Shown here in pieces: positions 1,307-62,519 of a DNA stretch of 64,000 nt. This DNA is from Clusia tigrina. Lineage: Eukaryota; Arthropoda; Insecta; Diptera; Clusiidae. Made by a program: the position numbers and the translations under genes. Where the stretch lies: positions 229,959,194 to 230,023,193 of the forward strand of contig OV050031.1 of the NCBI GenBank assembly GCA_920105625.2, given 5' to 3'. Below the pieces are notes generated by a model that had not been told where the DNA came from, did no database searches, and worked only from the letters and a program-made list of their open reading frames with translations. How positions within the stretch are numbered: the stretch's first letter is position 1; each line of letters begins with the position of its first letter.

Positions 1307-2198
1307 ACACCAAATATCTCTGTTTTCTTTGTCTGTGGGACAGTGTGAAAAATGAACTCTGGAGCAGGAAAGACTGGCCGTCGAGAATGAACATGACTGT
1401 AGGAAAAGCTAACATCGTTCATGAACCGTTTGTCCTTTAGACCATGTGGCAAACGTATTAGTAATATTCTGAATTTACAATAATAAATATCCTTTGATTT
1501 ACAATATGAGCTAAAAATTTATTCAATCGTCAATAGCTCTTGTTAGTATTATATTAGATGAATACACCCAGTTATTTCTATCTTAGGATATATAACTCGC
1601 AACCGGTATGCCAGACAACGTACTGCGGTCAAATTAACTAGAAAATATAGAGGGTTTCAGTCTTATAATAAAGAGTGCATGAGGAATCTTTGGGTAACCT
1701 GTAATCTGCTGTTAGTTTCGGTTGCCATCAAGAATATCAAGGCAATATGGGCTAGTCTCGCAGCCAGCCGCAGTGGAAAAAAAATTAATTCATTTAAATT
1801 TGTGGCCCATGAAAAATTCCTGGCTTAAACCTTTTTATACCAAGACCAGATAATGACTGACAAATATATTTGCAGCAATCACCATTTTACTACCACAAAG
1901 TAACTGTTTTATTAACAAACTGTTTTATGAGTCCAAGTTTAACCAAAGAACATCAACGTAACGTGAAACAGAAAATCAGATATTTTTTCCTTCTTCTTGA
2001 TGAGACTTCTTATTACGTTGATGTTCTTTTGTTTAACATGTAGTGGTGGAAGAATGATTTTTTCTCGACTGATCAACGGTTCATGGACGATGTTAGCTTT
2101 TCCTACAGTCATGTTCATTCTCGACGGCCAGTCTTTCCTGCTCCAGTGTTCATTTTTCACACTGTCCCACAGACAAAGAAAACAGGGATATTTAGTGT
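1307..2198. mobile_element. Inverted-repeat (foldback-like) element, about 120-bp arms
   Basis: The segments 1307-1427 and 2075-2198 are reverse complements with only a few mismatches, for example the arm core GGAAAGACTGGCCGTCGAGA on each strand. The central 650 bases have no long reading frame. This is the layout of a non-autonomous DNA transposon with long terminal inverted repeats. No clear target duplication is visible (flanks ggcggat and aaaaggt). A smaller element with its own ends (1944-2030) is inserted next to the right arm. Confidence 0.7.
1944..2030. mobile_element. 87-bp mini transposon with CAAAGAACATCAACG ends and 7-bp TSD
   Basis: The ends are inverted copies of CAAAGAACATCAACGTAA (the last base at 2030 is T instead of the expected G). 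Perfect 7-bp direct repeats GTTTAAC flank it at 1937-1943 and 2031-2037. There is no coding capacity. The same ends occur at 51329-51356, 61885-61912 and 53637-53703, so this is one member of a repeated family. Confidence 0.8.
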
Positions 2199-43778: not shown

Positions 43779-44194
43779 CCTTCAATACAGTTATAAGTTA
43801 ACAATAACAAAAAAGGTTCTTACAATTTTTTTTCTATACATGGAAGTTATTTGGCAACCATAAACTAGTTCTAATTGATTAGAAAAGACAAATAATTATT
43901 CAGCTTATTATAATAAGCTGAATTGTAGTACTGAGTTCATTTAATGTTATATTTTTTCATTAATATTTCAGTATATTGATAGTAATATGAATATACAACC
44001 TATTACAAAATTATGTACTTCGGTAACACTCTTTTGTAATAGGAGTAAATATGGTGTATAAGTAGTTTATTCACCGAGGCCACTAGTGCTAACAGACCTC
44101 GGTGAAAAATGAGATTCTCGCATACTATTGCAATCCATTTTGCATTGATTTTGTTGTTAGATTCGGCAAGCTGTGTATCTATTGGTAATCTATG
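43779..44194. other. Right part of the TIR DNA transposon
   Basis: It contains a perfect 26-bp palindrome (43898-43923), a 12-bp inverted repeat CCTATTACAAAA (arms near 43999 and 44030), and a hairpin TTCACCGAGG (arms near 44070 and 44096). A short frame from ATG 44109 starts with a signal-peptide-like stretch (FALILLLDSASC) but runs directly into the transposon end. Confidence 0.6.
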
Positions 44195-51229: not shown

Positions 51230-51328
51230 TTTTTTTCTATTAATCTTGCGTCGAGAAGTTTGACAGCCATTGGGTGAAATTTTTTCAATTGATTTTAAAT
51301 TCACGAATGTTCAGTAATTGAATAATAC

Positions 51329-51356
51329 CAAAGAACATCAACGTTGATGTTCTTTG
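51329..51356. mobile_element. 28-bp palindromic mini-insertion with 7-bp TSD
   Basis: CAAAGAACATCAAC followed by its exact reverse complement. Direct repeats ATAATAC flank it on both sides (51322-51328, 51357-51363). The arms match the ends of the 87-bp element at 1944-2030. Confidence 0.8.
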
Positions 51357-51363
51357 ATAATAC

Positions 51364-52013
51364 GTAATGCAACAAATATATTACTAATATTTTTTACGTT
51401 AACTTCAGAAAAAGTATGCACTTAAGATTTTTTGACTTCTCAACTGAAATCTTGAAAATTGAATAGTTTGATTTTATAATTTTTTATTATTTTGAAGATT
51501 GACAATTTTTGCGAAAATGCCTTATTTCGTTTCAAAAACACATTCTATATTATGAAATCGAATACACTCACAATTTCATACGTACATATATGAATGAATC
51601 AGTGTCGATCATGAAATTTAGAATTTCTTTGATTTCATAAAATTTACCTATTTTTGTAAAAATAGAATTATTGGTACTCCAGTTTTTACTGACTTTGAAA
51701 GTTTTGTTGTAATTATAATAATTATATAATATATAAACAAAACAGATTTCCCTCTACTGAGTATGTTTGCCAATCATTCCAGGCGAACAGAAATCGAAAA
51801 CAGCATCACACTTCACATTATCAAATTATTCTTTAATTTCATATTGATATCTAAATTTGAAAAAAGTCTTCTTTGCTCTTATTTCCGGTTTCGCACCCTT
51901 CAGAAGTCCCTACCTGCAGAATTATAATGTATAAATGTATGTACATACACACGTGCTTCTCTTTGTTTTTGTTTTGCATTTGAGCATGCAAACATACATA
52001 CATACATATGTAT
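51364..52013. other. AT-rich intergenic sequence
   Basis: No feature seen. A short CATA microsatellite lies just before the LTR remnant. Confidence 0.5.
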
Positions 52014-53400: not shown

Positions 53401-53636
53401 CTAGCAAACAGTTGTCAGTTTATTTTGAAGAACGAATGAATGAATGAATGATTCCCCGCATTTTTCGACTTTATACATTTTTGCTCGCCTACTATTGTTT
53501 TATTAGTTTTCGTGTGAGTGAAATTTGTCAGTGGGCAAATTTCATTCTCACAGTATTTAAGTCCGTGCGTGTAAAATTCACAAAAAGATTCAAAATTCTG
53601 TAGTTATCATGATTTGTAGTGTCGCCCATTTAACTC

Positions 53637-53703
53637 GTAACGTGAAATATAAAGTCAAATATTTTGTTCTTGATGAAGCTTCTTATTACGTTGATGTTCT
53701 TTG
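53637..53703. mobile_element. Partial relative of the 87-bp mini transposon
   Basis: CGTAACGTGAAA, a variable middle, CTTCTTATTACGTTGATG and TTCTTTG match 1958-2030. The first 13 bases of the left end are missing, where the deleted LTR element abuts. The right flank is GTTAAAC. Confidence 0.65.
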
Positions 53704-55105: not shown

Positions 55106-55803
55106 TTAACATCGCGTTTCATACAATCCGCTGCGTCCAATATAACGCACCCATTTTACAACATCGTGATCGGAATAATTGAGTTTGGGCTCAAACACTT
55201 TGAGGTAACGCACTTTAAAGCCAGATGGTGCAAATGGTACCTCAAAGTTCATAGAAATAGGCGGACGTGTCCACTTCTTCTTGGTGTCCGTTTCGAGTAA
55301 CTCAATTTCAGCGGAAAGTTGAGTTTCCTTCATGCCAGCCATACGTTTGATCTTCCAAACGATAGCGTTCTCTGAAGCCTTATACTTTGCTTTACCTTTC
55401 AAGCAAATCAATTGTACTCCTGAAGTGTTTAGGGGCGTAGGTATCTTTACCTCGATTTTCTGTCCTAATAGGGATGGCTTAAAATTTGACTTCAGAACTA
55501 CTTTAACCTCCATCTTGGTGCGACCTACTTCTCGTACCAATGGAATAACACGGAATGGCAACGAAATATCTTTCGTAGTGCGATAACGCATCAATTCAAA
55601 TTCTCCGTCCGGTGGTATGAAGCTGATTGAATGCTCCGTCTCGAACTTGCTCAATTTAACGCACTGGTGAAACTGGCAGTCGTCAATTACTACGACAGGT
55701 TTACCAGAACGCGAAGTTTCCGCCTCAGAGTTTCCAGAAAGTCCTCGTCCTTTCGATTCCATAACAATCTTGTCGTTAATACCAAATTTGCATTCAGGCA
55801 TAC
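55106..55803 (-). CDS. AP-2mu: AP-2 mu, exon 4 (cargo-binding domain, stop)
   Basis: Medium subunit of the AP-2 clathrin adaptor, which works at the plasma membrane, binding PIP2 and Yxx-phi sorting signals during endocytosis. The four exons (56733-56557, 56501-56223, 56052-55893, 55803-55106) join in phase to 437 residues, the usual length. This exon encodes most of the mu-homology domain: [60 protein letters not shown] and the conserved end [12 protein letters not shown] followed by TAA. The acceptor attcgtag leaves two bases completing a Gly codon from exon 3. Sequence is very close to the animal family throughout. I see nothing damaged. Confidence 0.97.
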
Positions 55804-55892
55804 CTACGAATATATTGATTGTAATTTAAGCTTATTAAATTCAACTTTAATAAATATATAGTTAATTAAAGACATTGGCGATTCTCTATTAC

Positions 55893-61313: not shown

Positions 61314-62519
61314 ATGGCTTCCTCCTCTGGAGGAAACAGATTTGAATTGCTAGACCCAGACAGAAAAAGAAAAAAAGCAAATATAAACATCGACAACCAA
61401 CACGAATCTGCTCTGAAAGTGTCCAAGAAATTACATTTACTCGAGACGGCAATTCATTGATTTTCACAAAAAATGAGAAACAAACAAATAAATTCTTAAA
61501 AGCAACAAATTTAGGTGGAATATGTCCGATAGCAGCAAGTTTACACCCGATTCTAAACACAGTAAAGGAGTTGTGTTTGCACCACCACTACGAGACTTGT
61601 CCGAAACAGAAATTCTTGACGGACTAAATAATCAAGATGTAGTAGAGTTCCAAAAAATTAAAAAAATTATTGATGGTAAAACTGTGAATACCTCTCTTGA
61701 CATTATATCATTCAATAAATACGAACTCCCAAAAGAGGGTTATAATATAGGGTTCCTTAAATACAAAGTAGAAGCATACATTCAAGGTCCTCTGCAATGT
61801 AAAAATTGCCTGAAGTTGGGACACACCAAAAAATTTTGCAAAAGTGAAGCAAAGTGTGAAATCTGCGCGTCTGCAATCCATAACCAAAGAATATCAATAT
61901 TGATATTCTTTGCCATGACCCAATACCATGCACCAACGTCGAATGTATAAACTGCAAAGGTGCTCACAGACCAAATAACAGAAACTGCCCAAGCATCAAG
62001 CGAAGGCAAGAAATTCTAAAAATAAAAACAACAACAAAATGTACATACCAAAATCCCGCACAAACTGTAAATTCAAAACCACAAAACTACGAAATTCCAG
62101 TAGAAATACTAGAAAAAGCGATTGAAGAAAGATGTAAACGTCTCTCTTTCCCAAAACCTCTATCTTCCACAATTTCAAATTCAGCAAAGGCTGAATCCCC
62201 TTTACACACAACTTCACAAACAACAACAAATTTCAACAAGAAACCAATCTCTACTCTCCCAACTCCACCCAATACAAACAACTTTCAATCATTCAATACA
62301 ATAGCAAAGCAATTTTAGATCAAACACTCACACATAACCAAAAGAAAAACACATACATATTCAACTACCACCAAAACTATATCAAACCCAATATTGAAAC
62401 CAGCACTTATTAAATACGATGAAATTCATGTAAGCGATTCAGATTCACCTAGCTCGCCCCATAATTCAATTTTATCTGGAAGCACTAGCCCCTCGTCTAG
62501 TGACAGAGAGATGAATTGA
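61314..62519 (+). pseudogene. LINE ORF1 (Gag-like, zinc knuckles), frameshifted
   Basis: Starts at ATG 61314 (MASSSGGNRFELL). One frame break near 61440 leads into a frame with VKGVVFAPPLRDLSETEIL and the knuckles CKNCLKLGHTKKFC and CEICASAIH, as in I-factor-type ORF1. The second knuckle is split by the 28-bp palindrome at 61885. Afterwards CINCKGAHRPNNRNC continues in another frame, and the C-terminal Ser/Asp-rich end (DSDSPSS) stops at 62519. RNA-binding chaperone by family. Confidence 0.8.
61885..61912. mobile_element. 28-bp palindromic mini-insertion in LINE ORF1
   Basis: CAAAGAATATCAAT followed by its exact reverse complement. It is flanked by CCATAAC (61878-61884) and CCATGAC (61913-61919), a 7-bp duplication with one mismatch. 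Removing one repeat and the palindrome leaves a continuous C-x2-C-x4-H-x4-C knuckle, which supports a true insertion. Confidence 0.85.

Follow-up and report, generated by a model that had tools for sequence, protein, structure and literature searches.

Transposons of the P superfamily are the closest described systems for the palindrome considered here. The Drosophila melanogaster P transposase makes cuts staggered by 17 nt. Each flank thereby retains a 17-nt 3' tail derived from the transposon end, and the two tails are joined during repair (Chan et al. 2010, PMC2895639). In section 7 and Table 1 of that paper, P excision junctions read duplication, stub, microhomology or insertion, stub, and duplication. 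A join at AT was found in 14 isolates and, as we read the published letters, forms a perfect 30-bp palindrome; fillers copied from the flank are attributed there to Pol theta end joining. Galileo, another member of the superfamily, makes a 7-bp duplication (GTANTAC/GTATTAC) and has long inverted repeats and a P-type transposase (PMC4168063, PMC3573991, PMC2775673). A third member, 1360/Hoppel, also duplicates 7 bp, with the target motif GTTNAAC, and both P and the hAT element hobo duplicate 8 bp (PMC3276498). The term "excision footprint" is also listed for a genome-wide study of DNA transposons in rice (PMC4423477).

We analyzed a stretch of 64,000 nucleotides from Clusia tigrina (the window), which contains a 28-bp palindrome that is very probably the excision footprint of a P-superfamily, Galileo-like transposon. 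One LINE copy carries a 35-bp insert with a 7-bp duplication; sister junctions with short stubs occur elsewhere in the genome, as does a P-type element bearing the same tips. All of the footprint loci come from this one genome, and we infer the preceding stage, in which a full element occupied the site.

The likeness to P excision extends to the junction anatomy, the stubs set by tail length, the palindromic join and the flank-templated fillers (PMC2895639). The P junctions derive from the experimental element P[wa], with an 8-bp duplication and 17-nt tails, whereas those described here are natural loci with a 7-bp duplication, stubs of about 18 nt and tips of a different sequence. Galileo shares the GTANTAC duplication consensus (PMC4168063), as well as long inverted repeats and a P-type transposase, in a comparison that covers features other than the tips; unlike the present case, the excerpted descriptions of Galileo contain no excision footprints (PMC4168063, PMC3573991, PMC2775673). 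The likeness to 1360/Hoppel lies in the 7-bp duplication and in GTTNAAC, which is close to GTANTAC, and leaves the terminal sequences aside (PMC3276498). The rice study concerns plant genomes, and the likeness there is at the level of the term only (PMC4423477).

A palindrome in one LINE copy

The sequence CAAAGAATATCAATATTGATATTCTTTG is its own reverse complement over all 28 bp and is directly bounded by two 7-mers that match at 6/7 positions. The features of the locus are as follows.

61492 to 62318, plus strand: LINE ORF1 remnant with putative zinc knuckles, its frame shifted by the 35-bp insert (from the reading frames)
61878 to 61884, plus strand: 7-bp target duplication, left copy (CCATAAC), with one base altered (from comparison with LINE copies)
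61885 to 61912, no strand: 28-bp perfect palindrome, very probably two terminal-repeat stubs joined head to head as an excision footprint (lacking a counterpart in 29/29 other LINE copies)
61913 to 61919, plus strand: 7-bp target duplication, right copy (CCATGAC), identical to the empty site (from comparison with LINE copies)

The palindrome sits in the second of three C-x2-C-type motifs of the LINE ORF1. There the 35-bp insert, consisting of the palindrome and one 7-mer, shifts the frame: upstream, the frame runs into a stop behind ..APTSNV; downstream, it reads HDPIPCTNVECINCKGAH. An intact copy of the LINE (L052) encodes CEVCASAIHDPTPC, with the spacing C-x2-C-x4-H-x4-C. A Pfam search of the ORF1 of that intact copy gave zero matches, so we call the motif a putative zinc knuckle by its residue spacing alone.

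Related LINE copies were sought in the same genome (1.21 Gb, 666 contigs) with positions 61700 to 62100 as the query, which gave 42 matches, with 40 of 119 candidates scored. Of the 30 loci extracted, one was the window, which left 29 for the empty-site comparison. All 29 lack the 35 bp and read GCAAT followed directly by YCATGAC (CCATGAC in 5 and TCATGAC in 24). The insert is therefore real, and since the empty sites read YCATGAC, the right 7-mer is the original one and the left has changed by one base. A sequence-only reading of this DNA had described the palindrome, a near-perfect 7-bp duplication and an interrupted reading frame, all of which are borne out by the palindrome's identity with its reverse complement, the flank match and the frame shift. 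It had also proposed that related LINE copies without the 35 bases would reveal an insertion, and this is what the 29 copies do.

In a scan of the window for perfect palindromes of at least 16 bp, excluding those made of A and T alone, the longest were two of 28 bp, the one above and one at 51329 to 51356. The second is listed here with two other members of the same family.

1944 to 2030, plus strand: element shortened to 87 bp by internal deletion, sharing these tips, flanked by GTTTAAC (1937 to 1943 and 2031 to 2037) (from a tip match)
51329 to 51356, no strand: second 28-bp perfect palindrome, CAAAGAACATCAACGTTGATGTTCTTTG, with an ACGT center, between perfect 7-mers ATAATAC (51322 to 51328 and 51357 to 51363) (from the palindrome scan)
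53553 to 53703, plus strand: right terminus of a longer family member, with the right flank GTTAAAC (from a sequence match)

Fragments of the family's 2,362-bp element lie at 51425 to 52003, adjoining the footprint at 51329 to 51356 and upstream of the right end at 53553 to 53703. The 87-bp insertion and its flanks (1937 to 2037) match a second place in the genome over 115 bp at 96% (L131, G000 C2:147204134-147204328). Its 7-mers are the same, in reverse orientation, so the site was duplicated after the insertion. A further perfect palindrome of 26 bp, ATTCAGCTTATTATAATAAGCTGAAT, at 43898 to 43923 has edges without matching 7-mers. The window also contains an open frame at 55106 to 55825 on the minus strand, whose product may resemble mu of the AP-2 clathrin adaptor complex.

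Facing tips across the genome

When up to 3 mismatches are allowed, the genome has 11 matches to the palindrome pattern and 0 to its reversed control. Against viral contigs the pattern gave 0 matches, and the 18-nt end pattern was found in 39 viral contigs (L001-L039). A literal literature search for CAAAGAACATCAA listed one honey-bee paper.

Facing 13-nt tips, CAAAGAAYATCAA and TTGATRTTCTTTG, were then counted by span over the whole genome: 52 places at 26 to 56 bp, 2 at 57 to 86 bp and 2 at 87 to 116 bp, with 0 for the reversed controls in each span class. Thirteen matching nucleotides were required on each side and the stub range covered starts at 13 nt, so deeply trimmed scars are missed and 52 is a lower bound. 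Fifty of the 52 places were listed; 46 of these were parsed, leaving out four further copies of one duplicated locus on C3, and 5 loci from the mismatch search brought the number to 51. Removal of 7 same-event duplicates, judged by flank similarity, gave a set of 44 independent loci.

The junctions in this set are 28 bp long at 12 loci, 31 to 40 bp at 25 and 42 to 54 bp at 7. There are 17 different lengths in all, and the 32 loci that are not 28 bp fall into 16 of them. The host duplication is found on both sides of the junction: the flanking 7-mers agree at 7/7 positions in 24 loci, at 6/7 in 13 and at 5 or fewer in 7, giving 37/44 with an agreement of at least 6/7. The same level was reached by 118 of 2,000 random pairings and by none at six shifted offsets. 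By position counts over the 44 loci, the duplication consensus is GTANTAC. The sequence-only reading had suggested a search for palindromes with 7-bp flanking repeats elsewhere, and the outcome, well above these controls, upholds its view that a transposition-type event left two terminal repeats joined head to head, as do the facing tips themselves.

Two footprints lie inside repeated units, with five copies at C2:122171547-122201778 and six listed at C3:120582079-120634490 (G000); that is, these are scars later copied along with the host sequence. One host repeat holds two different junctions (L091/L092 versus L100), which suggests separate excisions at one site, although later change could also explain the difference.

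Junction anatomy

Stub lengths were measured against the end of the 2,362-bp element, a sequence common to both of its ends well past 18 nt. At 86/88 junction ends the element end is kept for 21 nt or less. The remaining two ends keep 26 and 27 nt; they belong to L088 and L103, each with one long stub, and these two loci are better regarded as internal deletions than as footprints.

All joins of two 18-nt tails, CAAAGAAYATCAACGTAA, were enumerated. With C at position 8 of the tails, ACGT, located 2 nt from each tip, is the sole overlap exceeding 2 nt; it is the longest near-tip overlap in the enumeration, and its product is a palindrome of exactly 28 bp. The commonest junction observed is also 28 bp (12/44 loci), 9 of them with the exact ACGT. 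The other predicted near-tip joins each occur exactly once: TA at 32 bp (L098), T at 33 bp (L116) and the blunt join at 36 bp (L102). Tails with T at position 8 have an additional ATAT overlap 8 nt from the tips, for which a 16-bp product is predicted; a genome search with strict letters in both 7-mers did not find this product.

The longer junctions contain fillers, of which 11 were tested. Those of L106, L117 and L086 contain direct copies of the left flank, of 19, 19 and 11 nt (0/200 shuffles each), which take in the 7-mer as well as the first part of the stub. A clear template was not found for the other 8/11. In addition, a 63-bp locus (L130) has a 19-nt copy of the right flank, judged by eye. 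Taken as a set, the junctions have stubs that go no further than about the length of the 3' tail and varied joins with microhomology or templated fillers. By analogy with P, Pol theta end joining may have produced the flank-copied fillers.

The center of the palindrome at 61885 to 61912 is ATAT, that of the loci with the same arms is ACGT, and that of L041 is ATGT. At positions 14 and 15 of the 88 ends, CG occurs 67 times, CA 10 times, TG twice and TA twice, both instances of TA being in the 61885 to 61912 locus. We favor a loss of both CpG cytosines, which kept the palindrome perfect, over an element end that already carried AT.

The parent element

The genome has 353 exact matches to the 18-nt tip (206 forward and 147 reverse; control, 0). 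The P-type transposase domain PF21787 gave 150 scored matches of 737 candidates, and 0 of 14 control genomes matched. One tip on C1, among those listed, lies by its coordinates about 3.2 kb beyond a transposase match, and the stretch around it contains near-identical inverted repeats running past the fetched edge. From the repeat offset the opposite tip was expected near C1:142984955; it was found at 142984950 with one mismatch in 18. The whole element is 6,197 bp long and has the palindrome's tips, inverted repeats of 1.78 kb (1,784 bp, 99.4% identity) and the flanks CTACTAC and CTATTAC. Between the repeats, where the frame is broken, separate open pieces (in L132) match PF21787 (1.2e-15 and 2.7e-05) and PF21788 (7.3e-13).

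The presence of the tips and the P-type domains in one element links the arms of the palindrome to a Galileo-like transposon of the P superfamily. The element has P/THAP9-type transposase domains between inverted repeats, as well as a target duplication within the 7 to 8 bp expected of such a parent; the 7-bp GTANTAC duplication and the long inverted repeats are those of the Galileo group. We call the parent Galileo-like on the strength of the duplication, the inverted repeats and the P-type domains. Mutator elements make target duplications of about 9 bp, and both Mutator and hAT (8 bp) were set aside as parents on duplication length.

Within the family, the 2,362-bp element has zero open frames of at least 110 amino acids, and internally deleted copies of 87, 113 and 72 bp exist. 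A region of 0.19 Mb at C1:171130335-171324323 (G000) accounts for 50 of the 100 exact tips listed, many of them spaced about 3,125 bp apart, which suggests a tandem array containing the transposon tip. Positions 1 to 1298 of L127 (G000 C1:92036000-92037297) hold two long minus-strand open frames that, we presume, are akin to Transib/RAG1-like transposases.

Discussion

The course of events can be reconstructed as follows. An element ending in CAAAGAATATCAACGTAA.. would have inserted into the LINE and duplicated CCATGAC. A transposase would then have cut the element out with a stagger of about 18 nt, each flank keeping that end as a single-stranded 3' tail. The two tails would be alike, each with a self-complementary ACGT 2 nt from its tip, and microhomology end joining could pair ACGT with ACGT, so that trimming of the 2-nt flaps, fill-in and sealing would give CAAAGAATATCAACGTTGATATTCTTTG. 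Presumably, both strands of the CpG at the center later decayed, turning CG into TA, a step invoked because the window copy has ATAT and not ACGT, and the left 7-mer lost one match. Variable centers and lengths (28 to 54 bp), short stubs and flank-copied fillers together fit what the repair of excision breaks leaves behind. Against the footprint stand the 7/44 loci with poor duplications, the 8/11 fillers lacking a clear template, the deletion-like loci L088 and L103 and the missing 16-bp product.

The sequence-only reading had seen in the palindrome an object that moved in by transposition, with two terminal repeats head to head and a transposase supplied from elsewhere. Its transposition-related origin, 7-bp target duplication and head-to-head repeats stand, but the arrival of the 28-bp object as such is not supported, in view of the varied centers and lengths, the stubs of at most 21 nt at 86/88 ends and the 3/11 fillers that are copies of the host flank. 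Such a minimal nonautonomous element would account for the recurrence of the 28-bp form with 7-bp duplications at 12/44 loci. However, a MITE should present a homogeneous body at many sites, and 32/44 junctions have other lengths, 16 of them different; a moving body would not carry three fillers copied from its own host flank, and end joining of the tails already predicts the 28-bp form. A length of 28 bp would probably also be too short for a transposase to pair two ends. We consider a minimal element very improbable. Most likely, a larger element entered, made the duplication and later left, the reverse of the event first proposed.

The existence of 87-, 113- and 72-bp copies, and the 26 to 27 nt kept on one side at L088 and L103, would fit a different history, in which a MITE shrank to its tips through extreme internal deletion in copying or gap repair and the cut ends were never directly rejoined. 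This we regard as less probable still: the size continuum it predicts is absent, with 52 places at 26 to 56 bp and 2 each in the next two 30-bp classes, and 86/88 ends stop by 21 nt even though the element ends share sequence well past that point. Palindromes can also form locally through template switching or hairpin synthesis, without any transposition, and the 26-bp palindrome at 43898 to 43923, with its unmatched edges, may illustrate that route. For the palindrome at 61885 to 61912 such an origin is extremely improbable, since its arm is a transposon tip that is present, with 7-bp duplications, at dozens of places. On the preferred reading, an excision footprint, the 28-bp palindrome is best explained as having no function of its own, being a scar that shifts the frame of one LINE copy.

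The excision-repair reaction itself is already known. A natural collection of P-superfamily footprints was not found in the open-licence papers searched, and as far as those searches went, three things are new: the set of natural junctions, the value of about 18 nt estimated for this family, and the match between predicted and observed joins. It is conceivable, though unlikely, that ACGT 2 nt from the tail tip is kept by selection and directs closure of the donor break toward a single microhomology join that is short and precise. If so, P-type ends would evolve under selection for the closure of the scar, and the genome would be an archive of repairs.

An odd palindrome is thus explained by a known reaction, with dozens of natural P-superfamily excision junctions in one animal genome. 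Short palindromes with target duplications are not necessarily minimal mobile elements and call for caution. The junctions show how a Galileo-like transposase cuts, about 18 nt in from the element end, and make end-joining habits, such as the choice of microhomology and the copying of fillers, readable from natural loci without experiment.
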